Of a DNA stretch of 64,000 nucleotides, positions 1 to 37,445 are shown one piece after another; position 1 is the first letter of the stretch, and every line of letters begins with the position of its first letter. The notes under the pieces were generated by a model. The model had not been told where the DNA came from. It did not search any database and was given only the letters and a program-made list of their open reading frames with translations. Source of the stretch: Ectocarpus siliculosus (taxonomy: Eukaryota; Sar; Phaeophyceae; Ectocarpales; Ectocarpaceae); NCBI GenBank assembly GCA_000310025.1, contig FN649750.1, forward strand, positions 2,244,337-2,308,336. Direction: 5' to 3'. Position numbers and translations under genes: made by a program.

Positions 1-3000
1 TCGGTGGCCTCTTCACGTGTCTGTCCGCTTCGTCCCGGGCGTCGTCCTCCCTCGCGACTTTGATGCGGACCAAGTCCCGCCGCGGGCGGCGGAGCGAGTC
101 GCGGGTCACGCGCGGCACGCGGCCGGAGCGCGAGGCGGGCGGGTCGGGCAGGCAGTGGCAGCAAGGCGGCGGCGGCGGCGGCGGAGCCAATGACGGCCAG
201 GGGTCGCAGCAGCGGACGGCGGCTGACGGGCGGGGGGGGCGGCAGACCGGCCAGCCTTCCCCCGGGGCGCCGCTCAGGGTGGGGGCCCGGGAGCTGCGCA
301 GGGGCGGGAGCAGCGGGAGCTCCCGGCGGGGACGGAAGAAGAAGACCGGAAGCGAGGACCGCGGAGCCGCCGCCACGGCTGCGCGGGGATCAGGCGGCAG
401 GGGCGAGGTTGGGGCGCGAGCCGGCGTGGTGGGCTCGGGTAGGTTTCGGCTGGGTCGGGTCGGGCGAGGCAGCGGCATGACGGGGGGCCGGGCGGGTGGA
501 CGGGACTGGAGCGGGAAGGAGCTGAGTCGCAATGATTCGACTGTATCGAGCGAGGGCGACGAGATGCACTACGTGAACCCGATGAACGTGAGGAGAGAGC
601 ATCGGGTGCCAAACTGCTTTATTTTGTCTCTGTGTGTTGGTTGTCGTGGTCGTTGTTGTTGTGTGGGTTTGCTGTTGTTGGAAGTGTACCGCAGAGGGGA
701 ATACGGTTGATGTATGGGGGTCTCAATGTTGCCTCTCAAGCGTGGCCCCCGCCTATCCAGAGTGGGCTAAAGGATGTAGGGCCTGCTTCAACGACGGCGA
801 AGAGACAGAGGGGGGTGAACACGGTGACAATAGTTTTCGCTTTCTACGTGTCCCGCGATTCGTTTTTGGCTCCTGCCTGTGCGCCGACGTTCACGATTCA
901 CGGTGGCGCTCATCCATGGCTGTTGGCCCGGGGTGCTGTCGATGCTGTCCTTTCCTGGTGTTTTGTAGTTCTAGGAGTGTGTAGTCCGAAGGACTCTGTT
1001 GCGTGTGCTGATTTTCGCTGCGATTCCTCCTGTATCTATCGCTCTGAGCGATGTGCGAGCATGACCTCCACCCTTTCCCGTCCAAGCGCGCGTGCGGGCC
1101 TGTTTTTTCCTGGCGGGTGAGGACCTCTTCTCTCTCTCTTGCCATTCGGTCTCTGACTTGCCTCCCCCCGTGTGCTGCTCGCTTCTGCCATCATCTCCTT
1201 CCTTCCTAGCTGAGGAGGAGATCCGCTCCCCACATCAACTCGCACCCGAAAGGCGGCAGCGGTGGCGGTGGCTCGAGGAGTGTACACCCTGAACATCGAG
1301 GGGTAAGTGGATTGAGACTCGGCGACGACGTGTGGCATGTTTTTTCTGATGTTTTGTTTAGGACGCGGGCGGTCCACTTCATCTAGTCTCGTGTCTTGCG
1401 ATGTTTCACGAGCCTGAAACCTTGGTGCTGACGAGTTACGCATTTTTTTTTCTGGTGTCATGACCGCCTTCGCGGGAAGTGGAGTTAATGAGGAAATAGT
1501 ACAGGGAGGGGGTACACAGACCCGACAAAAACCGAACCTAACTTCCCGAATTCTTTTATCCAACATGTTTTACTTGAACGTAACCCTGCGGAGGCTGCTG
1601 ATACATGTTCCGTTGTGTGGGGCGGACTGCTGCTGCTGTACATTCCTCGGACCAATGTCTCGGCGCGCTCTTCCCGCTGTACCAGCACCGGCTCCCCAAC
1701 CTCCTCAGCTGTATCTTGACTTAATGTTGTGTGGTGCGGAACTGCTGTTGAACCTTCCTCTGACCAACCTCTCAATGCGCTCTTTCCGCTGTTCCAGCAT
1801 GGGCTGCCCAACCTCCTGCGCAAGTTCACATTCCTCCGGCGGTCATGGCGCGGCGGGAAGCAGCAGAGGCAGGGAACCACAGAACGCGGCAAGGGCGGCC
1901 TGAACAACGGCACCATGAACTACGACCAGCGCATGGAGTTCCTGGCGGATAAGGCGTTGAGGACTTCAGTCGGCGGGAGGGGTAGCGGGGACGGGGTGGT
2001 TTCGGGGCTGGAAGAGCTGGGGTTGGGAGCAACGGCGGACTTCGACGGGGACGAGCTGGACATGGCGTGCAGGTAGCTTTTCATATTGCTTTTTCTGCTT
2101 TTTGTTGGGACAGACACGTTTTGTTTCTTTTCGTCCACATACATACATGAGAAGTGTAGTACACGTCTCATCACGAAAAATGGGGGGACTGTCGCCTGTA
2201 TCAATGTAGGACAAAATCAACAAAAACATAGGGTCTTCGTTGTGGTTTCTCCGTTATTTTTGCGGAGGCCTGCTGGACGCGCCGAGGAAAATTTATTAGT
2301 GTCGAACCCGTCGTAGTTGCCGTTGTTGGTGTTGGTGTTGGTGTTGTTTGGCTCGTTGGTTGTCACCACCGTATTCTCAGAGGACCACATGACGTTTGCT
2401 TTGTCCCAGACGATAGCTTTTCCGCTGTGTGGATGTGTGACTGTCGTTGCTGCGATTGGTGGTGGTCTCGTGCTGGTTGTACCCACATTCTAAGGCAAGC
2501 AACCTTTGCCCCCCCCCCCCCCCCTTGCACACAGGCGGTTGCTGGACGCGCTGTGGATGTCCGCCAAGCGGGGTTCAGACACCCTCCAGCTCTCCGTCGT
2601 GGACGGCCGTGCCCTGCTCTCCGGCCTACTCATGGGCCTCGCCCCACCGCCACCCCTCGAGATCGACCCCGCGACAGGCAAGGCGCAGGAGAAGGAAAAG
2701 GAGGAGGAGTTGTCACCGTCGCCGCTTGTTGACCTGGGGATTCCCCTGCCCAGAGGTACGTACCGTAGGCGCCCGTGCTTGAGAAGCTCTAGTTTGGGCC
2801 GGGGGCCGGGGTTCTCGGGTATGCTGCGAATGACCGCTATCTGCACGGGGTTCTCAGCCGAGCTTACAAGTGGTTGGTGCTATGCATAAAGTCATTAGAT
2901 GTTGAGTTGTTAGAGGCGATATCGATTTCTTGACTGCTAGGTTCTAGAACAGGTGCGCTAACTCTGTACCGCTGTTGTCTATGGACGGCGTACAAGCAAG

Positions 3001-6000
3001 GCGTGTCGACCGACTTCTCGTACGCAGTTCGGTTGGGTGTATATGCACGTATCAGCAACCTTCCACAAGGTAAGGGTTAAGGGAGGGGAGGGGGGCGTCA
3101 TCTGCGCTTGTTTGTTCGACGAGTTGTTGGCACGGCGTGTTCGTTGTTTCATGTGCTTTTGCGTTTAGTTTTGTTTTTTGCTTGGCAAAGTTGCGTTCGA
3201 ATCATTCGGAAACGTGGAGTGTGCGCTGTAGTTTGAATTCATCGACACACGCGCTCTTGTTGCTTTGACACATCTCAGCCTTCCCGCCCAAGAGGTCCAT
3301 CGGGTCTACATATGTATTGTCGTTTCGTGGGCGTTTCATGTGAAGCGAGTCCGACACGCACGCACGACCGAAAATATGCACATGGTCAGCCAGCAGGTGA
3401 ACGCGGTCACTCCTTTACTGTGGCGACACTCACGCTGGGCCCTGAGTTGCCCGGCGTTGTGTCCATGTGCGTGCGTGCGTGCGCGCATGTGTGTGTTTTT
3501 ATGCCACGGGACCGTTCTCATTTCTTTCACCGGCCTCCAAGATGTTTTTGCTGATTCACCGCCGGTGTGCCCGTGTGCGTGCGTGCGTGAGCCCGTGTCC
3601 GGGCCAAGCGATCGCTATCATTGCCATCCACCGCTTTCCTAGCCTCTTAGCCTTTCCAGGTTTTACACCATTCAACCACCCTTGTCACCTAACCGCCGCC
3701 GCCCCGCGACTCCCTTCAAACCAAAAAAACGCCACCCAACCGCTTAGCGCTAGCGGCACTAACGGCGGCAAGGGCGGCGGGCACCGCGGCGAAACAGTTC
3801 GGGTCTACGCCGGGTCTCCACCAGAAGGCGATGAGGCCTATTCTTGTCGGGGCGTCCGGGCCGTTCGCAAGGGCTGCTAGGGAGGCCGGCCGGGGAGGGA
3901 GTTCCCGGTATGTGTTTGCGCGTGTGTGTTTTATCACTTGCATCGGCCACCGTGTTATCCGGCTGACCAATGAAAGACTTCTGTATGGTATCGGCCACCG
4001 TGTTAATCGGCTGACCAATGAAAGGCGTCTGTATGGTATCGGCCACCGTGTTGATCGGCTGACCAATGAAAGGCGTCGGTGTGTGTAGTTTTTTTTTTTT
4101 TTTCATCGACCGCGCTATCCGGCTGACCAATACGCCAGTCTTAGTGCGGCAGAAAACAGAAAAAACATCTGAAGACCATGGTCTATGTGGAGTATTCGAT
4201 AAGATTAAACTTAGATTGCGGATGGTGTTGGACGCCGGCAAAGGGCCTTGCAGGAGGAAGAAACATGTCCTGGAGTACAACAGAAGCATAGAACGGGAGG
4301 GGGGGGGGGGGGCTCTTGCTTTGGAATCCTTTTTTTTTTTTCGTAGAGATGTTTTTCGAAGAAAAGCTCCTGGGTTCTACGCCGGCACCCACCAACAATA
4401 TCGTGAACAATGTAGCGGAAAAAGGCGAGAGGGGATAGTCACCCGCAACTTGTCGTGCTATGGAGCCACCTTTCCCTTGCCATCCCTTGACATCCAAGCA
4501 GCCGTATGTACCAACCAATCGCACTCATGGGATGTGATTTTTTTCAGGGAGGGGAGCACAAGGTCATCGTCGAGCGCGAGGCGGCGAGAGAAGGCGGCCC
4601 TGCAGCGGGCGATGGAGTTGGCCATGGGAGTCGAGAGCGAGAAGGAGGTTAAGGCACGCCGGATGCGCGAGAGGGCTAGAGAAGGGGCGACTACGGCTAT
4701 GAAGGTACGTATATATTGATGTATAGAAATGGGTCCGGGCCCATCAGAGCTTAGTGTCATCAAGGCGTTATGGAAGATGGAGATAACGCCTTTGTTGATG
4801 TGAATCAACCAGCTGCCTTGTTGATGTGAATCAACCAGCTGCCGTCAGTGACGTTTTCCATGCTCGCATAACTGACGTGTTTTGTACTCGCGAACAGCCA
4901 AGCGAACCTCAGCAAACCAAAAAAGGAAATGCTCAAATCTTAATGTGTACAGACAAGTGATCCTGTCCGGAGTGAGAGTACAATATCATGAAGGGGTGAT
5001 GCAAGAGGAAAGTAGAAGCAGGCAGCAGGAAAATCGCCCCGAGTGTCAGGTGCGGTATGACGGTTACAACAGCTTACACAGCTGACGTGTTTTTTGTCTC
5101 GAACAGCCCAGCAAACCTTAACGAACCAACAATAAAGAATTACAGATGTGTAACAGGCTATGCCGGTGTGCTCTGGGAGCCCCCCCCACCTCCCCTCTCA
5201 CCCCCTGCCGAGGCGGCTTGGGTTGGGGGAGGCTGGTAGGCTGGCGCGAAGACCAGTTAGGTGGGGCATAGTTGCACATTTACCCTGTTGAGGGGTATTT
5301 TCAGGGGGCCCTTCTTGGCGCGGTGAGCAATTGATTTCCCAGTTTGAGGCCTCAAATGTGATGTCGACAATGAGGCCAAGCGCGCGGCGAGCGAGGTTGT
5401 TGTAGTTTGCCTCGGAACACGGTGGCGTAACGTGTTTTGTGTCTTGTACAAATATTGGGGGCTGATGTCGTCTCTTGCGGGCATCGTCCGAATACGAAGC
5501 TTGAACATAACTTGCGGGCATCGTCCGAATACGAAGCTTGAACATAACAGAATGGCGTCCATGAGAAGAGCCAAGCTTGCACGCGACGGTGACTTCGTGT
5601 TCGGGACCCATTTTCGTGGCATGTTTCGGCAGCCTGCATTTCTAGGCTGGCTTTTGGCGACCGCACGGCACTTTGTGGTGTTGTTCGGGTGTCCTTGCTG
5701 GCGCAGGCGCGCAAGAGGAACGGGTGGTGGTGGTGGTGGCGGCACAATGTATGCGGAGGTACAGTAGCGGAAGGTGTTGTGCGGAAGGCGTATTTGATAT
5801 GTTTCAGGTTTGGTGCCTGTCCGTCATCGCGAAGGAAACCTTGGTCGGACATGTTTGTGAAGAGGAGGCGGCGGTCCCGGAGTCACAACACACGTGTGCG
5901 TATACTCCATGGTATTGAATCGGCGTGTAAGGACTAGCTCGCTCGGTGCGACGAAGACGACGGCGCTCACGCAACGGTTGTTTAACCCGACCGGTTTTAA

Positions 6001-7485: not shown

Positions 7486-10400
7486 TGTGCGGATTGTTTC
7501 AACCCTGCTTTATTGTATTGGCGTATCGCATCGCCCCAAACTAGAGGGGTCCGCGTAGAAGCTGCGAATTTTCTTTCGTTCTGTTTGTATGTACTACTGT
7601 ACCATGCTTTTGTGTGGCCGTTTCTACATCTTGAGAAGCGCTCGCTGCACTCAGCTATGGCGGTCGTGTGGTGAAAGGGAATCGAATGGCCTACCGTCCA
7701 TACTTATGGGTTAGTCACTCCCTAGGACCGTGCATATAGTGCCGAGGCAAACTCGGTTGGGCGGACTGGGCGTCGTGGGATATAGGTGGCGGGTTTGCTC
7801 CCATGGTAGAAGAGGGTGAAATCGAAGATGTAGGTATTGTGTGGTTTTCTCCCGCTTCATGGTGTTTGTGCCTTTTGGTCGTCCGAGTGCAGCAGATTGG
7901 TTATCCTTGAACGGGGTTTGCACTCTGCCGGAACATTCTTTCCAAGCGCGAGGGGGGACACGCGAACGTTAAGGGTAGCATTGGGTGTTAGATTGGCGGT
8001 TATAACGTAGCCTATGGGGAAAGTCAGAGAGTACCATGCATTTTTATCTGAGATATTTTCTCCGTGTTGTTTTATTCGGTTGTCGCTGCTTTGCGTTGTG
8101 CATTCAGTCTTGATGTTGCACCCTTTTCTACCTACTTGAGTCCATCCGGCCTATTGATGTGGACGCGTGTGGATTACGGTGAGAGCAGGGTGTTGGGGGG
8201 GACAGGGCCCTGTGGATGAGAACGTGGGGGTATTGTATGTCAAAGACACGGGTGCACGTTTTGTTTTTGTTTGACTGTCGAAGGAGTATTGTTTGACTCA
8301 CTTACCAGTGAGCGCTGGAGGGCTGCTGTGAGTTGGTCGTGATGCCGTAGGAACTGCAACTGCAAGGGTGCTGACCTCGCATCTGAGGGGGGCACACTGA
8401 CTGGGCAGGGTCAGGTGTTAGACGGGTACGTGCGATGGAAACACGGTGCACGGATCGCTGTTCCTACAAGCTTTTTGAAGTCTGGGTTATGGTCGAACCC
8501 GGCGTTTTCACACGTTCGCAGAGCAAGATGACGTCTGCTGGGTATCGGTTTGGCAACTGACCGGGGCGGAGTGACAGCGGCGGCTGGGTGTACGATATCC
8601 ACACGCGCGTCGAGAACCACGCCTCCAAGAGATCGTAATATACGTCGCTCTCGCCAGCGGATTTACAGTAAATTAGCGGAAAAGGGAAGATATTTGATGG
8701 TACTGGAATTTTTTCTACTTGAACCTCGTGCGAATCGGCCTACGCTAGATATAGATCAGACGCAACAGCGGGTGAGTGGGATGCCGCGCACGCGACTTAT
8801 GTAGTTGTAGCTTGAGTTGGTACTCTCCTTTGTTTTTGTGCGTGTTTTTTTGGACTGGCGAATGACTACTGCTGTACCTCGTGTCATCTGAATCTGGTGG
8901 CGGTAATAAAACCAAACGCAACACGCAGTGTGTGCTCATCTGGCTCCCCAGCGGTTGGTTGCCCTGCATGATTACTTCCGTGTAACCGTTATCTTTAGTG
9001 TTTTTCCTTGGTTGTTTCTTGGGGGTGGTGCAGAAATTTTCCTTGGTTGTTCCTTGGGGGTGGTGCAGAACTTGGTTGTTGGATCCTTCTTGTTGTTGAC
9101 CCATGCATGCTCTTGTAGGTCCCAGTGCTGTTAGTTTTTGTTTTATTTACATGTCCACTGCCGTCGTAAGCACTCGTGTCCGTGTTGCCACCTCTTTTTT
9201 TGTTGTGGGCGTGTGCAAGCTAGCAGTCTCCGCTTACCAGGCGGTTAGCACCAAGTGCCCGCTTTACTCTAGCCCGATGTATGTAGGTGCATGCAGGTTT
9301 TCGTTCCCATTTGGTGTTGGTGTTTATGTCCGGGATTACTTTTCGTGGATTGTTGCCAGGGAGGGGACGCGCAACTTGTCGCTGTTGCTGCTGCTTTGAG
9401 CTTGAGTTCGCATTTGCGATTTTTCGCATTGTACCCTCTTCCTGTCCTCGGTTGTGAGGTACACTCCTTCAAGGAAAGGAGGATTGTTCTTGTGAAATGT
9501 CTGTCGCGAATAAAAAAACAGGCTCCACATATGCATGCATTGAGTGAAAGGGCTAATCAGAGCTGGGGGTGGAATGTCATCAAGGTAAATGCCAAAATGA
9601 AAGTAAAAGCATGTGTTGCGGTTAATTAACTGTCAGCTGCGATTGACGTTTCCCAAGCTCGGACAACTCATCCCGCTGATGACGCATGTATTATTAATAG
9701 TTATTCGAAGAGCCCCTAGCGAGAAACGTCAACGAACCATTTTTTTTTTTTTGCAAATCTGTAGACAGCGTCTAACGTGCCGCTGCCGCAAGACTGGCCG
9801 TGCGTTCGTCTGGCGCCCACCAGTATGGTCTACTGTAGGGGGTTCAACGACTCACAGGTGTTGGGGTAACGGTGATAGCCAGTCAGCTCCACAAGGTAAG
9901 CTTTTTTTGTCCATAATGAAGATTTAGCGCCGTCGCTGACTTCCGCCGAACACGCTACGCACCGGCTCCTAGCGATTCTGACGTGCAAATCGATCGTGAG
10001 ATTTGGGTATGGGGGCGAAAGACTAATCGAACCATCATCTAGTAGCTGGTTCCCTCCGAAATTTCCCTCAGGATAGCTGCAACCTGCGTTCAGTTTCAGC
10101 GACAAGTTCATAATAGACGCAGCCACGCATCAGTGCAGCTCGTCGCTGCGATGTACCGTCGCTGCGATGCCTCATGAGTGAGTGCGGTACAGCGGTTATT
10201 GTATATATACTGGGTGCGGTGTCGTCGAGGCATCTCATGGGCATACCTACAGATTAGGTACATGCCGAGGGCCGGCACAGTTGAACGTCAATATACTGTA
10301 GTATTCGGCGAGTTGCATGAAGGGTGCGCTGCATCCTGCTTCGGGAGTTTGGCATCTTGTGCTTACTTCCTTGCGTACGGATGACAGCTGCGTGTGACTT

Positions 10401-27719: not shown

Positions 27720-27966
27720 GGTCCCGGAAAAAATGACTTTCAAATGGGAGGCTCTCGGTGCACCCAATGCACAATTGACGGACGGGAAGAAGATTGGTGC
27801 CGAAGGAGGGGGGAGTACACCGGAGGGCCACCCAAAGCTTCCGATTGTTATCCTTGCCGTGTGTGATCAAACCCTGCGGGGACATGGTCGTTGTGATAAT
27901 GTTACTTATGAGGATATAGGTCTGGTGTGTATTTGATGTACTACCGGGAAAAAGGAAGGTTTGTTC

Positions 27967-28215
27967 GTCGAAGCAGATAGAATAAACTGGTGTTTATTTT
28001 GTAACAGTCGAATTAGAATTTGGCTTCATTTTCTACCGGAAACCCAGGGTCACGGTGTTTGGAATTATTAGTCTATAGTTGGGGGTGTCATTCCGTGATC
28101 GAGTCCACGCAGGGGCTGTAGCAAAGTCGGGTAACGTGTGACAGCTACAGAGCGCGTGAAGCAACGGAAGGACAGCAGCAGGCGCCTAACGCAGTAGCGG
28201 CGGCAGTTTAGAAAA
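27967..28215 (+). repeat. Split direct repeat A1
   Basis: Matches 33928-34176 for 249 bases. The match ends at GCAGTTTAGAAAA, after which the two sites diverge. Confidence 0.93.
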
Positions 28216-29108
28216 GGGCGGGACGGGACACGGCGCAAGCATTGGGGAAGTGACCAGCACGCGACTCTCCATATAAAGGTGTGTACTCGTGTCCAACATC
28301 CATCGTGTCGGCCGTGTTCCTATTCGCGTCCCGCTACTCTTGTGACCTCACCGCTGCGTGCATTTAGCACGAGGGGGGAGGGTGCAGTAAGATAAGCGGC
28401 GGCAAGCCAACGCAGTCTCGCTCGCCGCGCCGCTCAGATAGGTCCCTTCCCAAACATGGGATGCGGTTCATCCCAACCGAGACGTACTCTCGCTGAAGAA
28501 AAAAAATGCGGTTCGTCCCAACCAGACGTACTCTCTCTGAAGAAAAAATTCAACGGCAAAAAGAAAGAGCGGGGCCTGTTGTATGGTCGCACGCTGACTT
28601 GTCGCGGTTGATAGCAGCCATTGTACTGCACGGGGTGGAGGAACCCTGCGGCATCGGACATAACCAATCGACCCGCGGCAGTAGGGCATGATGCTGTCAC
28701 GATTATGCACATGAGGCAGGTGCCTTGTTTTCTGTTTCCCCCGGCTTACTAGGGACTACTTGCCGGTACAATCTTGTCTGTGCCGCGCACAGAGGGGCAT
28801 ATAGCTGAAGGAATCGACGATAATATGCCCACTCACGTAAGCAATCGTCTCCACGGATGGTATTGACAAGTCCCCACTGATGGTATCGACAAGTCCCATG
28901 GCATACAAAGCGGCCGCATACGTAATCGGAAAGTGCATTCAACAGCATTCACGGGAACGGATAAAAGCAAAAACACATGCATGCGAGAGAAAGACTCAAA
29001 GAAAAAGACTGAAAAACAATGAAGACGAGAAAAAAAAAACGAGACAGCGAACTACGTGCTGTATGCATAAGGAAAAAGAAGATGAGAAAAAAATAGGGGG
29101 AGATGGAT

Positions 29109-29169
29109 GTGACACGCGAGGTTCGAACTCGCGAGGAACGTCAGGTAGCGGTCCATGTGAGTGTATCAC
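29109..29169 (-). other. tRNA-like hairpin fragment
   Basis: The minus strand reads GTGATAC ... GCGAG-TTCGAAC-CTCGC-GTGTCAC. This gives a perfect T-arm with canonical TTCGAAC loop and an acceptor-like 7-bp stem (one G-T pair). At 61 bases it is too short for a D-arm plus anticodon arm, so it is not a normal tRNA. It could be a decayed tRNA or part of a small structured RNA inside the recombinase element. Confidence 0.3.
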
Positions 29170-29364
29170 GGTCTCGAGGGGCATCACGTCAAATTTATTG
29201 CCGCCGTGACACAAACCTTCTATAAGAATACGTCACGTCCATCGACGATTAAGCGACCAAAAACGCCCGGACAGCAATTGATGCATGCCAAAAACTCGTC
29301 AACCTGCCGTAGGATTGTCTATGCGGAAGTGATCTCAATGAAAATAAAAAAAACAAGGACACGC

Positions 29365-31105
29365 ACCAGCACGGGACGCGCCAATAGTGGAAGCACTCGT
29401 CCGTGCTGTTGGCGAGTGGAAGTTAACCGATCTCAACGCAACGAAACACGAAGTCATACATGTATCAGCACGGGATGCGCCAATGAGTGGAAGCACCCGC
29501 GCTGTTGGCGAGTAGAGTTAACCGAATTCAACGCAGCGGTAGAAAAATACCACAAATCATGCATCAGTACGGGACGCGCCAATGAGTGGAAGCACCCGTG
29601 CTGCATATGTGATGTCAGCCTCAGCACGGGACGCGCCAATGAGTGGAAGCACTCGTGCGGTTGGTGAGTAGAGTTAACCGATCTCAAAAAGAAAGAACAA
29701 AACGCCGTACATGTATCAGCACGGGACGCGCCAATGAGTGGAAGCACCCGCGCTGTTGGCGAGTAGAGTTAACCGAATTCAACGCAGCGGTAGAAAAATA
29801 CCACAAATCATGCATCAGTACGGGACGCGCCAATGAGTGGAAGCACCCGTGCTGCATATGTGATGTCAGCCTCAGCACGGGACGCGCCAATGAGTGGAAG
29901 CACTCGTGCTGTTGGCGAGTAGAGTTAACCGATCTCAAAAAGAAAGAACAAAACGCCGTACATGTATCAGCACGGGACGCGCCAATGAGTGGAAGCACCC
30001 GCGCTGTTGGCGAGTAGAGTTAACCGAATTCAACGCAGCGGTAGGAAATACCACAAATCATGCATCAGTACGGGACGCGCCAATGAGTGGAAGCACCCGT
30101 GCTGCATATGTGTTGTCAGCCTCAGCACGGGACGCGCCAACGAGTGGAAGCACTCGTGCTGTTGGCGAGTAGAGTTAACCGATCTCAAAAAGAAAGAACA
30201 AAACGCCGTACACGTATCAGCACGGGACGCACCAATGAGTGGAAGCACCCGCGCTGTTGGCGAGTAGAGTTAACCGAATTCAACGCAGCGGTAGGAAATA
30301 CCACAAATCATGCATCAGTACGGGACGCGCCAATGAGTGGAAGCACCCGTGCTGTATATGTGTTGTCAGCCTCAGCACGGGACGCGCCAACGAGTGGAAG
30401 CACTCGTGCTGTTGGCGAGTAGAGTTAACCGATCTCAAAAAGAAAGAACAAAACGCCGTACACGTATTAGCACGGGACGCGCCAATGAGTGGACGCACCC
30501 GTGCTGTTGGCGAGTAGAGTTAACCGAATTCAACGCATCGAAAACGAAGTCGTACACGTATCAGTACGGGACGCGCCAATGAGTGGAAGCACCCGTGCTG
30601 CATATGTGTTGTCAGTTTCAGCAAGGGACGCGCCAATGAGTGCTGTTGGCGAGTAGAGTTAACCGATCTCAAAAAGAAAGAACAAAAACGCCGTACACGT
30701 ATCAGTACGGGACGCGCCAATGAGTGGGCGCACCCGTGCTGTTGGGCGAGTAGAATTAACCGATCTCCACGCATCGAAAACGAAGTCATACACGTATCAG
30801 TACGGGACGCGCCAATGAGTGGAAGCACCCGTGCTCATATGTGTTGTCAGTTTCAGCAAGGGACGCGCCAATGAGTGGAAGCACCCGCGCTGCGTACAAG
30901 TATCATCAGTGCGGGTCGCGCCAATGAGTGGAAGCACCCGTGCTGCATATGTGTTGTCAGTTTCAGCGAGGGACGCGCCAATGAGTGGAAGCACCCGCGC
31001 TGTTGGCAAGTGGAGTTCACCGTATCCAACGCATCGAAAAAAAAAAAAAAACACGTATCAGCACGGGACGCGCCAATGAGTGGAAGCACCCGTGCCGATG
31101 GCGAA
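29365..31105 (+). repeat. Higher-order minisatellite (~250-bp unit of ~36-bp subrepeats)
   Basis: The subrepeat core GGGACGCGCCAATGAGTGG followed by AAGCACCCGTGCTG occurs about three times per ~250-bp unit. Whole units start near 29458, 29709, 29960 and 30210, with shortened units up to 31105. Spacers alternate between GAGTTAACCGATCTCAAAAA and GAGTTAACCGAATTCAACGC. Reading frames through it are broken and periodic, so I treat it as satellite DNA, not coding. It lies between A1 and gag of the recombinase element. Confidence 0.93.
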
Positions 31106-31415
31106 CCGGGGTTCACCGAATCCAAGAAAATATATATATAAAAAAAAAAAGAGAAACCATCGCTAGTGTTCCAAAGAGAGAAATATTCGGGATTGGTCGA
31201 CGTCCGGTGACCGTAGCGTCAGCAGCAATAATCACTCCATTCAATCCACAGGCGTCGAGAATGAACTAACGCGAGCTCGCGATATAACAACGCGTCGTTC
31301 TGGGCCCGACGAAAACCCACGTCAGATAGTTTCGCCCGAAGATAGGATTTGTAGACCATTCTAACTGCAGATCCAGGCGCGCGATCGACTACGCCCACGA
31401 TGAAGAGGAAAAGAA

Positions 31416-32428
31416 GTGTTCCCGCAACGCCGCCCTGACGCTCGCCCGCCGCCTGCCGCCGGTCCGCTGCTTATACGACTCCAACCGCGACCAGATGCCG
31501 ACACGGGCCTCCACGCGGAGCGGCAGGGCAGCGGCTGGGCAAGCAGGGCGAGGTCGGGCGGCGACACCTTCGACACCACGCACGAGAGGTCTACCGCGCG
31601 ATCGGTGGCGAGCTCGACGGCTCGCCCCTCGACGCGCAGCGGATCACGTACTCCCGCGAGGCGTCGAGCGGTATCCTCCTCGCGAGCGCCAGGGACAGGC
31701 ACCCGCGGCGACCCCCCCGCTGATGAGACTGAGCTCGCTTCTCTCCGCGGGCTGGTGGACGGCCTGAGGGAGGAGCTGCAGCGGAAGCGCGATGAGGCTG
31801 CCGGTGATCGCCAGCAGCTTCAAGCAACGATCGACGACCTGATCGCCACCCCAAGCAGCAGGACCTGGCCTTCCGGGGGGGGGTGCAACTTGTGGGCACA
31901 ACCGCCCCACCATCGGCCTCTCGGGCCCCCGCTACACCCAGCGCCGAGGCGGCTAAGGCTACGGCAAAGGATAGAGCGCGGATGTGGGGGGACCTCCGCC
32001 GGGTAAAAGCGTGGCTCATCCTGGGGCGGCCCCCGGCAGTTTCAAAACTGTCGCAGATGGAGTGGCAATCCTTGCTTCGCAAAGGCGTCCTGGTGACAGA
32101 GAAAGTGGCGGCATCGCTCGACACGCTCGTGGTTAACTGCTTCGCCTTCAACTCGTCGTCCGGTTGCCATGATCGTAACTGCCCACACATCCACGCCCAG
32201 AACCCTTCCCACGCTAGGCGCGGAGCGTCCGAAACTCCGGCAACCGGCGCGCGCGGCGTTGGCCACGGCAACGGGGGAGGGCGCGGAGGAGAGGCGCGCG
32301 CCGCTGGCGAGGGCGGCGCGAGACCCAAGGCCGCTGGCTTCTTCACCCACGGGAAAGACAAAATAGGGGTGCGGGCTCTCCCGCGTAGCGGGGGGGCCTA
32401 CCTCGGATGGCAGCGCACCTGCGGCTAA
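31416..32428 (+). pseudogene. Gag-like ORF of the recombinase element, frameshifted
   Basis: The N-terminal part is Arg/Pro-rich with a helix (GLVDGLREELQRKRDEAA). The C-terminal part is in another frame, after a shift at about 31845-31883 that includes a nine-G run. It contains the cysteine motif CFAFNSSSGCHDRNCPHIH (C-x8-C-x4-C-x3-H), like the single knuckle in gag proteins of DIRS/Ngaro elements, then a Gly/Arg-rich tail. The start codon is uncertain. The shift may be a sequencing error in the homopolymer or true decay. Confidence 0.6.
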
Positions 32429-32459
32429 ATCGAACGGCAGCACGCCGGTCTACACGAGG

Positions 32460-33614
32460 TTGGCTCCAGGGCTATCAGCAGGTTCAGGACCTGGGACAGG
32501 CAGGACGGGACTTTGTTACCGACGTCTTGGCATGCAGCTCGTCGAGCACTCAGTTGCGTCTTCGTCTAGAAGGACTTACACGTCAGGCTTCAACTCTTGG
32601 TGCACGTTTCGCAGGCTGACGGAGAAGCCCAAGTTCCTAGGGCAACGTGCCGGGGACCTTCATGTGTGGGAGTTGATAGACTTCGTAGCCTGGTGTTTCG
32701 AGTCTGAGGGTAATCTAGCGAGTACAATATCCGGAAAACTCACGGCTGTACAACATTTTCATAGGCTGGAAGCTTCTGTCGAGCTAGACTTGTCGTCTCC
32801 GATGTTGAAATGTGCGCTAAGGGGGATTGCGAGGAACCACGTGGCTGTGGGGACGGTACGCCGTGTGCGCCTGCCTGTGTCTTGGCGTATGCTGCTGGAC
32901 GGGGAAAGCGCAAGCCAGAACTGGGGGGAAGGGGGCAGAGTGATGTGGCTGTGTCTGTGCTTGTCCTATCTCTTTATCACACGGTCTGATGAGGTGTTCG
33001 CGAATGATGCGGGCAGGGTGCATGAGGCACACTGTCTTACGAGGGCGGACGTAGCATTGTTTGCTGGCGAGACGCAATTAGTCTTTAGTCACTATCGTAG
33101 AGCAGACCGTGTCGAAATGAGGTTTAGAGGGCACAAGGCCGATCAAGAGCAGAAAGGAAACATACGGGTTCGTACGCGAGACGAAGGCACCGGACCGCAG
33201 TCAGGTGTGAGAGCACGCGGTGGCGCGGTGGCTCTTGTGGTGGAGCTGTTATCGTGTCATGCGACGTTCCCTGACTCCGCACCGTTGGCTTCGTACCGTA
33301 GTGGAAGAGCAGTGAGAGTAGTGAGGTATACTGCTGCCCTCCGTGCACTCAGAGAAGTGGTAGCGAGGTCGGGGCGTAACCCCCAGGAGTACGCGTTGCA
33401 CTCGTTGCGAATTGGAGGCGCGACGGCTCTTGCATCGGGCGGAGACATCGCAGAACGAGTGATTCAGAGAGAAGGGAAGTGGAGGTCGGATGCATACAAG
33501 CCGTACGCGCGAAACAATGTAGAGGATTCGCGGCGAGTGTCACGGAAACTTACAGACGGCAGTAGGATCGTATCGAGACAGCCGGGGGAGGGGACCGTCT
33601 GGGGGAACGGATAG
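32460..33614 (+). CDS. Tyrosine recombinase (Ngaro/DIRS type)
   Basis: An uninterrupted 384-codon frame; translation may instead start at the second Met (codon 25, 32532). The N-terminal SAM-like DNA-binding region (about residues 30-130) has SSSRRTYTSGFNSW. The catalytic core follows, with Arg175 in the FITRSDE box, Lys226 (FRGHK), His314 and Arg317 in HSLRIGGAT, Trp341 at the third His/Trp position, and the likely nucleophile Tyr349 in SDAYKPYAR. All catalytic positions are present, so the enzyme could be active. In known elements it inserts a circular double-stranded DNA intermediate without target duplication. Length is normal for the family. Confidence 0.9.
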   Translation: MAPGLSAGSGPGTGRTGLCYRRLGMQLVEHSVASSSRRTYTSGFNSWCTFRRLTEKPKFLGQRAGDLHVWELIDFVAWCFESEGNLASTISGKLTAVQHFHRLEASVELDLSSPMLKCALRGIARNHVAVGTVRRVRLPVSWRMLLDGESASQNWGEGGRVMWLCLCLSYLFITRSDEVFANDAGRVHEAHCLTRADVALFAGETQLVFSHYRRADRVEMRFRGHKADQEQKGNIRVRTRDEGTGPQSGVRARGGAVALVVELLSCHATFPDSAPLASYRSGRAVRVVRYTAALRALREVVARSGRNPQEYALHSLRIGGATALASGGDIAERVIQREGKWRSDAYKPYARNNVEDSRRVSRKLTDGSRIVSRQPGEGTVWGNG

Positions 33615-33655
33615 TTGACTTATTCGGTAGTCGTCCAGAAACTGACCTCGATGTG

Positions 33656-33827
33656 GGTGTTGTAGAATGGTGTGTACCATTTGAGGACTTGGTCAGTTTT
33701 GGGACTCCTGCGTTTGCAGTCGTAGTCCCCCGGCTAGTATTTGTGGGGAGAGAGATGGATTTGTAAGAGTTGACGCCGGCCTTTGCAGCTAACGCGGCCG
33801 GAGAGACGATGAGCGTTTCGTGCGTCT
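33656..33827 (+). repeat. Split direct repeat B1
   Basis: Matches 34245-34416 from GGTGTTGTAGAATGG to TTTCGTGCGTCT. Its right edge is cut by the assembly gap. Confidence 0.93.
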
Positions 33828-33927
33828 NNNNNNNNNNNNNNNNNNNNNNNNNNNNNNNNNNNNNNNNNNNNNNNNNNNNNNNNNNNNNNNNNNNNNNNNN
33901 NNNNNNNNNNNNNNNNNNNNNNNNNNN
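33828..33927. other. Assembly gap (100 N)
   Basis: Exactly 100 Ns, a placeholder size, located between repeats B1 and A2 where identical repeats would be expected to defeat assembly. Confidence 0.95.
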
Positions 33928-34176
33928 GTCGAAGCAGATAGAATAAACTGGTGTTTATTTTGTAACAGTCGAATTAGAATTGGGCTTCATTTTCTACCGG
34001 AAACCCAGGGTCACGGTGTTTGGAATTATTAGTCTATAGTTGGGGGTGTCATTCCGTGATCGAGTCCACGCAGGGGCTGTAGCAAAGTCGGGTAACGTGT
34101 GACAGCTACAGAGCGCGTGAAGCAACGGAAGGACAGCAGCAGGCGCCTAACGCAGTAGCGGCGGCAGTTTAGAAAA
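33928..34176 (+). repeat. Split direct repeat A2
   Basis: Copy of A1 starting directly after the gap; its left end may be missing. It is followed by 68 bases of sequence not repeated elsewhere in the element, then B2. Confidence 0.93.
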
Positions 34177-34244
34177 TCCCGCCCTCCCATCCCTTTTCTT
34201 TCGAAGGTGGGGGCATAAGTTCGGGAATATTCGGTATCTAGTCA

Positions 34245-34416
34245 GGTGTTGTAGAATGGTGTGTACCATTTGAGGACTTGGTCAGTTTTGGGACTCCTGC
34301 GTTTGCAGTCGTAGTCCCCCGGCTAGTATTTGTGGGGAGAGAGATGGATTTGTAAGAGTTGACGCCGGCCTTTGCAGCTAACGCGGCCGGAGAGACGATG
34401 AGCGTTTCGTGCGTCT
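34245..34416 (+). repeat. Split direct repeat B2
   Basis: Copy of B1. It may continue rightwards past 34416 into CTCTCCCCAACACG, but B1 is cut by the gap so this cannot be seen. Confidence 0.9.
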
Positions 34417-36599
34417 CTCTCCCCAACACGTAGCCTAGAAACCGAAGAAATAATGAAGCAATTCGAAAGAAAACAAAATAAAAGCGGGTGTTATGACAGA
34501 CACCGGGGTGCGATCATTTTCATTTTTTTTCCTGCGATGGATTTAATCGCACCCCAGTCGACCATGGACCGATGACAGCGGTGCGGACATGCATGCATAA
34601 ACTTGAATCGTTTTGTTCTAGATTTTCGTCGCAACCCCGGTCGGTGCGATGACACGCAAGCAAGCAGCCAGCCCAGAATGGTAATCAGGGCAAGGTACGG
34701 TTCGGTATCAGTTTTCTTCCAACCCCTTTGTTCGTCGCAAGTCCCTCATTTGTTGGCTGGTGCGTCCCTCTGTCTTCCTCAATGAGCACGGTACCGGTAC
34801 TATTATTGTATGTGCAATGACCAGTACGACTTCCATTTCGTTTGGTTGCTTGGAGGTGCGGGATGCATGGTGTGTGCTTGGTTGGTTGAGCGAGTGCATT
34901 CGATGTACGGATGACCGTCAAACAACAACTTGAGTCATATCTACGCGCACACCTCGACGGCACCCTATACATCCTTCAAAAGAACGGCGCCCAACAGCCG
35001 TTCGCCGTATGCAGTTCCAAAAGTGGCCCGCGGAGTACCTGTACATTGTGGTACGCAAATTTACGTCCGTAGCAGACTTTTTCTACGGTTCTTAGACTAT
35101 AGCAGAAGTCCTACGACACGTCATCTTGACAACATTGCTTTGCTTGTTTTGGGCCCAAGATTGTTGACAATTTTTTGTGTGTTTTCGCCCTACTGTAAAA
35201 CATCCAATACGTTCTTTTAGCGGATGAAATACACACATGCTGAGATCATTGCCTTAGAGCATAAATCGAATGCTTCCATCGCGCTCATTAGCGAGATGAC
35301 GTTGCGGCACGTCCGTCAAGACGCAAGAAACTCGGACATTTCAAACATTCTTCCGAATTCCCTGTTTGATGTATCGTCCCTGTTTGACCTCCTGCTGCAA
35401 ACGTACAACTTCACACACTACCAGCACAAGTCACTACAAGGTGGAATAGGGATGGGATGCCGTCTCCTGTTGTGGGTTGCTTGCCATCGCCTGTGCTGCC
35501 ATTTTGAACATCAACAGCCAACCAATCAACCATTATAATTTCGCCGCATCATTGGTTCTCGCGAAACGGTTGTAGTTCCGCCGCAAACAGGCCGCTACTC
35601 GTCCATCGTGAAACGATTAAGGAATAGTAAAAACACACACAGAAAGACTACACGTACCCATTCGAGATATACCCACAGTCGAACGATACAATAGCAGTTG
35701 CAGCGCGTGACACGCCTGCTGTCGCCGTCGCCTCTCGTGCTCGAATTAGCTTGTCATCATATGGTACGGTGTACCTTTCGGCATGACTCCCTCACAAAGC
35801 ATAACAAAGAAGACGATTCTCCTAGAGTCAAATCAACAGAGCCATCATATGAGTTACGGCGTAGATGACGCGCGGGAGGAACGCAACTTATGTAAGACCC
35901 CTCGGCGAAACGCGACGGCTTCCCACGCTCATATACACCGACCTTGACCACAGGTTTACTCAAACCGATCTGACCATACGCCAAGATGGTAGGATGATCC
36001 CGGTGGCCGTCCCGCCTTTGTGGAGGGCGGCCGCCATAACCTTGTTGTTGTTGACATCGCCCCAGGTTACCGGTGCGTAAACGCAACAATAAATCATACC
36101 GCTACAGTTGTGGACACCGATGGGCGCGAAATCAACGATTGGTGCCATAGCACGCAAGTTTATGGTACCCTCGCATAGCGTTATAGCGTGTGCCCGGGAG
36201 GCAACATCAAGGTTATGGTTGAGTGGCCCTTATGGCCGCGTCCAATATTGACACAAGATAGTCGAAGCAAATAAGTTTTTCTCCCCAAACCCACCCGCAG
36301 CAGCACGATCTGTTGTTCCACATACCGTAGAGGTATTGGTAGGTAGGTGCAAGATGGACCGTTTGACAGAGTGCTAATAGTCATATGAAATGCATTGATG
36401 CATCAGGGCAGACAGATTCAGATACTGGGTAGAGAGATCGGAACGGTTGTAGTGTGAAGACAACGACAACAATAATCCACGAATTTCCCAGGGTGGATCA
36501 ATGCCTGCCATGGATATCGCCAAGGTAGTTATTAGCGTACAGAGGCGATGATGGCGACGATCGACGGAGTGACTGCGGCACGATCGGCGAACGAAGCCC

Positions 36600-36790
36600 C
36601 AGGTCGCCCGATCGACGGGCCGATCGGCCCAACCCAACTCTCCCCAACCCAACCCGACCCAACCCAACCCGACCCAACCCAACCCCACAGCGACGAATGA
36701 CGAAGAGTGGGTGGCGCGATCGACGGCAGCCACTCAACCCGAACCCAACCCCAACCCAACCCCAACATCGACCCCGAACCCGACCCAAGT
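36600..36790 (-). repeat. CCCAACC / CCCGACC minisatellite
   Basis: Irregular runs of CCCAACCCAA and CCCGACCCAA at 36628-36695 and 36735-36785. On the minus strand they read as GTTGGG/GTCGGG repeats. Confidence 0.75.
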
Positions 36791-37107
36791 CATTAGTGTA
36801 TGAGCGCAGGGTGAACGGTTGATGAGCGCAGCACGAAAATGTTGCAGTTTCGTTGGGTGCAGGCAGTACTGTGATCGGGATTCCTATACCAATCCTAAGG
36901 GTGTGTCTTAAACCCCCTCCCGAAACAGAACAGGGAACAGGGAACTCGGAATTTTGTCGGATTGGCCAATCACACAAAATAGGATTCCTAGAAGCAAGAA
37001 ATGCCACACATGTTCCTAACTTTTGGGTAAATGCACCGCACCGTAATTTATTCATGAACTTGTTTATAAAAGTACATCGCGAAGGTGTACCTATTCTGGT
37101 ACTGTGA

Positions 37108-37445
37108 TAAATCAACGCGACGACTATCGTCGGCATTGCCTGTCTGAAGCTGATGTGGTTTTTGGCGGGTGTGACTAGCTGCTGGCTTGAGTATACTGCG
37201 TTGACAGATCAAGACCCAACGGTGGATGGAAACAAAAAAAGAAACAACAGCTGCTCGGGGAACGACTGGTGCAATAGTCGACAGCGCAGTCTTGTCTGTG
37301 GAAGAGAACGGGTGTGGTGCTAGAGAAATTCGCCGGTCACCGTTCGTTGTAGTGGTCACACTATATACAGTCGCCCGGTCGCTGCGCAGTCGGGCAGTCA
37401 CACTACCTTGCGCCGGTGGCCACAGGTCACGTACCCAAATGATTT
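37108..37445 (+). repeat. Dispersed repeat family R1, copy 1
   Basis: Shares ATTGCCTGTCTGAAGCTGAT, TAGCTGCTGGCTTGA-like, GCGTTGACAGATCA, ACAACAGCTGCTCG, GTCACCGTTCGT and GTGGCCACAG in the same order with 54195-54445. The first block alone recurs at about 55443-55490. Confidence 0.75.

Follow-up and report, generated by a model that had tools for sequence, protein, structure and literature searches.

A recombinase-keeping short form of an Ngaro-type retrotransposon in Ectocarpus siliculosus, probably mobilised through RNA

We analysed a stretch of 64,000 nucleotides from the genome of Ectocarpus siliculosus (contig FN649750.1, positions 2,244,337 to 2,308,336; hereafter the window), which harbours, between position 27954 and about 34482, a mobile element with split direct repeats and a tyrosine recombinase (YR) gene. 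We propose that this element is a non-autonomous Ngaro-type derivative that is mobilised through RNA, with Gag and the reverse transcriptase-RNase H (RT-RH) supplied by full-length copies, and we put the probability of this reading at roughly 86%. The evidence for it includes an RT-bearing relative with the same repeats, a large number of copies carrying the same deletion junction, and mutations found identically in both repeats of single copies.

The repeats follow each other in the order A1-B1-A2-B2, with the open reading frames (ORFs) between A1 and B1, a plan that had already been recognised in an earlier reading of the letters alone (the sequence-only reading) and that our comparison bore out. 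The A pair is a direct repeat of 249 nt (27967-28215 and 33928-34176) and the B pair one of 172 nt (33656-33827 and 34245-34416); both pairs are 100% identical to the reference copy, a rounded value, as one A1/A2 difference is present. These visible matches understate the true lengths, since A begins at 27954 and B2 extends to about 34482. The element thus starts with GGAAGG on the left (27954) and ends with AACAAAATAAA on the right (about 34482). Its features are as follows.

27954-28214, plus strand: A1, left split direct repeat (visible match to A2, 27967-28215)
28272-28277, plus strand: TATA-like box directly 3' of A1, putative role
29359-31139, plus strand: non-coding leader with a tandem hairpin array (repeat and folding analysis)
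31330-32362, plus strand: gag remnant (match to the gag of the RT-bearing copy L017)
32138-32194, plus strand: Cx8Cx4Cx3H knuckle inside the gag remnant (read from the sequence)
32367-32483, plus strand: RT-RH scar, first 39 codons (homology to the RT-RH frame)
32478-32483, plus strand: 6-bp microhomology at the RT-RH deletion junction (comparison with L017)
32479-32616, plus strand: RT-RH scar, last 46 codons, overlapping the YR start (homology to the RT-RH frame)
32532-33614, plus strand: YR, open, 360 amino acids from Met plus stop (ORF list, alignment, homology)
33656-33827, plus strand: B1, visible part, the remainder inside the assembly gap (direct repeat)
33828-33927, no strand: 100-N assembly gap, in other copies about 80 bp of B1 tail and A2 start (copy comparison)
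33928-34176, plus strand: A2, visible part (direct repeat)
34245-34482, plus strand: B2, right element end, visible match to B1 stopping at 34416 (direct repeat)

The element was compared with 11 further copies fetched from the genome. The counterpart of the assembly gap is 80 bp long in 10 of these and 82 bp in L009, and it holds the B1 tail running directly into A2, so that B1 abuts A2 wherever no gap intervenes. A stretch of only about 80 bp in the 11 other copies leaves no RT in the gap, and the earlier concern that one might be hidden there did not materialise. For 10 of the 11 copies the stretch obtained includes A1; in the remaining one (L010) other DNA takes the place of the left part.

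The RT-bearing relative is represented by a copy on contig C27 (L017), located through a pair of A repeats spaced 7.9 kb apart. It shares the A and B repeats, 97-98% identical, and the leader with the window element, and it carries, one after another, open frames of 542, 690 and 392 codons that correspond to gag (with the same knuckle), RT-RH and YR; this is the full-length relative with RT between gag and recombinase that the sequence-only reading had recommended looking for. In L019 and L021 the middle frame is 768 codons long, and in L017 it is truncated close to its end. By eye it contains the RT motifs KVDSKDAF, LQFGWNLSPP and YVDD and the RNase H-like SDASGD and GDN, and it matches a PADLOC RT model (E 1.2e-4). 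Of seven RT-bearing copies compared, four have gag in a single frame and three have the whole 768-codon RT-RH match in a single frame; at least one copy has gag, RT-RH and YR each in a single open frame. A genome search with the RT-RH frame, in which the best 40 of 140 candidates were scored, gave at least eight places at 94-100% identity (seven full length, one from base 197), two relatives at 68-69%, three partial matches and then 117-bp short-form scars alone.

Relative to L017, the short form has lost 511 bp of gag (510 net in the window), a further 84 bp of gag, and 2,056 bp running through RT-RH. This third deletion has a 6-bp microhomology and removes most of RT-RH. All three deletions occur in 12 of 12 compared copies, the window included. 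These losses, together with the RT scar and with termini common to an RT-bearing relative while the needed enzyme is missing, identify the window element, on sequence comparison, as a non-autonomous internal-deletion derivative of an Ngaro-type element from the same genome. RT is present at the other YR loci examined: five picked by the YR motif alone (L012-L016) all have RT and YR matches, as do two picked by RT (L064 and L065). On this comparison RT is the normal state among the examined loci, and its loss in the window family is derived. In one of these loci (L016:1850-6310) about 4.4 kb of other DNA interrupts the RT match of the related element, and ORFs with shared ends lie on both of its strands (2247-2936 plus with 8696-9355 minus, and 8547-9227 plus with 2405-3817 minus), suggesting other inserted mobile elements.

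What is left of the RT-RH in the window amounts to codons 1-39 and 723-768 of 768, and no RT domain was found in the element; the statement that it has no RT/RNase H frame is therefore confirmed. The same two ends remain between gag and YR in all 12 compared copies (codons 723-760 for the second in L010). The gag remnant (31330-32362) matches codons 1-174, 181-266 and 440-542 of the 542-codon L017 gag, in three frames and with its middle missing. It retains the predicted gag knuckle, C-x8-C-x4-C-x3-H at 32138-32194, which is CCCH-like. The spacing of 31 bases between gag and recombinase holds for the mechanical ORFs (31883-32428 and 32460-33614) and fails for the genes, as homology places the YR start at 32532 and the RT scar between gag and YR (32367-32483 and 32479-32616). 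In all 12 compared copies the gag matches are spread over at least two frames; L002 has a 327-codon open frame, but no more than a portion of gag lies within it in the correct frame. Because gag is broken in every compared copy, the derivative probably must take Gag from elsewhere, which strengthens the need for a helper.

The short form is abundant. An exact 32-mer across the gag-YR deletion junction occurs 68 times in the 189.5 Mb searched (492 contigs), the window included, and its reversed-pattern control never. The junction copies are spread over many contigs and both strands, and their number answers the suggestion to look for further copies with this junction and rules out a one-off deletion, the outcome that had been named as fatal to the idea of a lineage. 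A DNA search with the gag-YR stretch, scoring the best 40 of 228 first-look candidates, gave 40 matches (one being the window itself) that are all 99-100% identical over the whole 1,321 bp. The YR genes of 11 of the 12 compared copies differ pairwise by 0-2 of 1,134 nt (L011 by 7-8), and we take this near-identity to mean that the expansion of the family is recent. The derivative seems to outnumber its full-length relative, with at least 68 exact-junction copies against at least eight RT-bearing places. The exact 37-mer of the A terminus occurs 194 times in the genome. On contigs C6, C10, C12 and C22 extra A termini lie 150-570 bp from the A terminus of a full element, which suggests solo or tandem A-B units produced by recombination at the repeats.

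How, then, does the short form move? In the cycle we propose, the derivative RNA would be packaged and reverse transcribed by Gag and RT-RH from full-length copies; the missing A1 and B2 ends would be restored from the internal B1-A2 junction, yielding a circle; and YR, either the derivative's own or that of the helper, would integrate this circle into a short A-rich site, with no duplication of the target. The circle model of DIRS1-like elements has been extended to elements with the A1-B1-A2-B2 order; to our knowledge, this split-repeat replication model has so far mainly been drawn on paper.

We found a record of such replication in the B repeats of 64 derivative loci, comprising 11 full copies and 53 short stretches but not the gapped window; 54 of the loci have both B1 and B2, five lack A2 where expected and five lack a recognisable B2. 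Five B end columns with many differences were set aside. Eight distinct substitution events, in 12 copy-cells among the 54 copies, appear in the same form in both B repeats of a copy, where the chance of one such match is about 1 in 711 per event; C>T at B position 122 occurs in four copies, each time in both repeats. Unpaired cells, mostly singletons and with indels and end columns counted in, number 20 in B1 only and 17 in B2 only. Site 75 of B, paired elsewhere, is changed only in B2 in L092, and L084 has two different letters at one site. Paired changes are seen in the A repeats of the RT-bearing copies, where A1 and A2 both deviate at six lineage-specific columns. Copying from the B1-A2 junction as a template predicts paired changes and plain DNA transfer does not, so the paired B1/B2 changes favour an RNA/circle cycle with RT acting in trans over a DNA cycle run by YR alone. 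Of the two options that the sequence-only reading had left standing, a non-autonomous lineage that borrows RT is accordingly the one supported, by the 68 exact junctions and by the RT-bearing relative with the same repeats, and a DNA-mobilised form is disfavoured by the identical private changes in B1 and B2.

Several observations weigh against the RNA cycle as we draw it. No paired private A1/A2 change was seen in derivative copies (30 A1 and 31 A2 rows), where a few might be expected; one of the A1 rows is partly N, two rows are partly replaced, and 20 copies were selected by the exact 37-mer opening both A repeats. Two A1-only substitutions (window 28137 and 28155) are common to four and two copies, and a B1-only substitution (position 15) and a B1-only 1-nt insertion (position 92) are each found in two copies. 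Such shared changes fit partial regeneration, and they fit simple inheritance as well; they would fit an RNA in which the 3' portion of A1 and the opening bases of B2 are present. However, one A change downstream of the A1-only ones is paired in RT-bearing copies, and a TATA-like box lies downstream of A1, a position hard to square with an RNA that includes this portion of A1. Allowing up to three mismatches to a 20-mer, the box is present in 10 of the 12 derivative copies and in six of the seven RT-bearing ones. The RT frame itself matches RVT_1 weakly (E 0.005-0.02, below the cut-off) and has no match in the PDB.

The poorly fitting A1-only and B1-only changes and the position of the TATA-like box are the reason why we retain a rival in which the element is mobilised through RNA but the identity of B1 with B2, and of A1 with A2, within a copy arises by gene conversion after insertion rather than by template copying. 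Conversion between B1 and B2, which are nearly identical and lie 589 bp apart, could also pair mutations, which again tells against our reading, and the absence of paired private A changes from the 30-31 derivative rows is in its favour. Still, single-repeat changes are plentiful, with the 20 B1-only and 17 B2-only cells indicating that conversion is not efficient, and the change at B position 122 is invariably in both repeats of its four copies; we regard this rival as unlikely.

More improbable still is a Crypton-like, DNA-mobilised element, in which YR alone excises a circle and reinserts it with no reverse transcription. Such a life would suit the YR frame, uninterrupted in the window and in all but one of the 11 further copies, the lack of a detectable target duplication, and the A1-only variants common to several copies, which would be inherited in this manner. 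It would need added gene conversion to explain the eight paired private changes in B1 and B2, it gives no known use to the internal B1-A2 junction that the element has retained, and cut-and-paste by itself does not yield 68 junction copies. That the RT-less form is an assembly artefact, or was spread passively by larger duplications or unequal exchange and not by transposition, is scarcely credible: the copies are nearly identical and two of the 11 fetched ones contain 100-N gaps, but the flanks differ on both sides (31 copies with both) and the copies lie on many contigs and both strands, as expected of independent insertions.

The insertion sites agree with YR-mediated integration. The 35 left and 31 right flanks differ among copies, and no target site duplication was found in the 31 copies with both flanks (mean match 1.03, compared with 1.07 after shuffling). 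The base directly before A1 (position -1) is A in all 35 left flanks, and position -3 is A in 32 of them, a pattern that fits YR insertion at short A-rich sites.

The recombinase keeps its catalytic residues, as had been claimed: when it is aligned with four relatives, all five rows have HxxR, W and Y, and four have the first Arg, one row being misaligned there. A profile of this alignment gave six weak matches in the PDB, a ribosomal protein first (E 0.062) followed by five Cre entries (E 0.25-0.39). The window YR had no match to PF00589 (Phage_integrase) at E up to 10; the sole match of this family in the genome at E up to 0.001 (47 of 47 candidates scored) lies elsewhere, at C76:55488-55793 (E 6e-5), so the profile is of no use for this recombinase. 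Among viral contigs, none of three stretches matching a pattern for this YR was confirmed by tblastn, and seven phage records matched at chance level (E about 7-8). Changes in the derivative YR, few in number, are indistinguishable from neutral (N3, S3, P 0.16), whereas purifying selection is seen on the YR of the RT-bearing lineage (N2, S10, P 3e-5); the difference between the two lineages is not significant (Fisher P 0.27). The idea that the element supplies its own integrase thus keeps its open YR frame as support and is possible but unproven, with no detectable purifying selection on the derivative YR, and the derivative may depend on this enzyme or do without it.

A more specific and rather doubtful extension of the RNA cycle is that the short form is a stable parasite lineage which has given up RT and Gag and has kept YR because this enzyme works best in cis, on the circle from which it comes. 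Its RNA would run from inside A1 to about 15-30 nt into B2, and the other parts of the terminal repeats would be rewritten from B1-A2 at each jump. If true, the split-repeat replication model would find a natural test in such a stable, YR-keeping parasite lineage.

Ngaro elements have the plan A1-[ORFs]-B1A2B2 (PMC8547959). As far as the passages of two sources on the superfamily extend (PMC8547959, PMC4157794), the window element resembles its members in the repeat plan, the gag-then-YR order, a YR with HxxR and Tyr, and the lack of target duplication, and the RT-bearing relative in addition has gag, RT-RH and YR as they do; the window family differs in being without RT-RH and in its broken gag. 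As in Ngaro, the scanned ORFs of the window element, L017, L019 and L021 gave no Pfam match to a methyltransferase. The window element thus has the split repeats, the catalytic YR residues and the absence of methyltransferase and target duplication that mark the group, and lacks its RT/RNase H. In Ectocarpus, 15 Ngaro families with 3,893 copies have been described, making up 2.45% of the genome; they belong to the same superfamily as our element, the passages of that source do not mention an RT-less Ngaro, and the window family may already be among the 15 (PMC12477816). The genome searched here has at least 150 scored matches above the cut-off (880 first-look candidates) to the EsV-1-7 domain family, against none in each of 14 control genomes, which agrees with a brown-algal host, as proliferation of this domain in brown algae is described in the same source (PMC12477816).

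Non-autonomous YR retrotransposons are already known, according to excerpts of the sources. SIRE is a truncated, non-autonomous form of VIPER in Trypanosoma cruzi, about 435 bp long and corresponding to the A2-B2 region (PMC6681497), and Ngaro types with ORF1 deleted occur in Cafeteria (PMC8547959). Like SIRE as portrayed in its excerpt, the window family is a non-autonomous derivative of a split-repeat YR retrotransposon, but it retains an open YR, a leader and a gag remnant. Chlamydomonas TOC1 is another non-autonomous YR retrotransposon. The Cafeteria elements share with our family the loss of coding region; the region missing there, going by the excerpt, is ORF1 (gag-like), whereas our family has lost RT-RH and has a truncated gag with a broken frame. 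The unusual part is that YR is retained while RT is lost, and at the level of titles and abstract openings, which is weak evidence of absence, we found no YR-keeping, RT-less Ngaro family in the literature. Cryptons, as introduced in the source passage, are YR DNA transposons with neither terminal inverted repeats nor long direct repeats (PMC3212892); our element resembles them in having YR without RT, and its long split repeats and RT scar set it apart and rule out a Crypton identity. For DIRS1-like elements, the corresponding passage gives a rolling-circle intermediate formed via an internal circular junction, with no target duplication (PMC3266345).

The window family illustrates how a YR retrotransposon family can be outnumbered, as seems to be the case here, by a shortened form keeping only the recombinase. 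Such a form could plausibly be intermediate between retrotransposons and DNA elements that have YR alone. The paired mutations private to single copies in B1 and B2 make the split-repeat replication model testable from genome data alone.

The leader contains a tandem array (29359-31139) of about 20 hairpin units with periods of about 95 and 250. Folded singly, three of five units are clearly more stable than their shuffles (z -2.6 to -3.0); the remaining two (z -1.7 and -0.3) are not, and neither is a 142-nt stretch. No tRNA or known RNA family was found in the element at the thresholds used. The array has 11-20 units in the 12 derivative copies, 8-15 in six RT-bearing copies and two in L023, counts that come from related copies and so represent few independent events. 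Tandem arrays of unrelated sequence lie upstream of the RT match in three of seven other Ngaro loci as well (L013, L014 and L065). The 18-nt motif of the leader hairpin is present in none of these seven, with one loose 13-nt match in L065, and of five stretches folded from the arrays of other families one clearly beats shuffles (z -2.2; the rest +0.4 to -1.6). A role of the leader arrays as a packaging or translation signal is possible. Near the element, on the minus strand of the window at 36374-37136, lie ORFs with a low-complexity tandem repeat of the GLGWV type.

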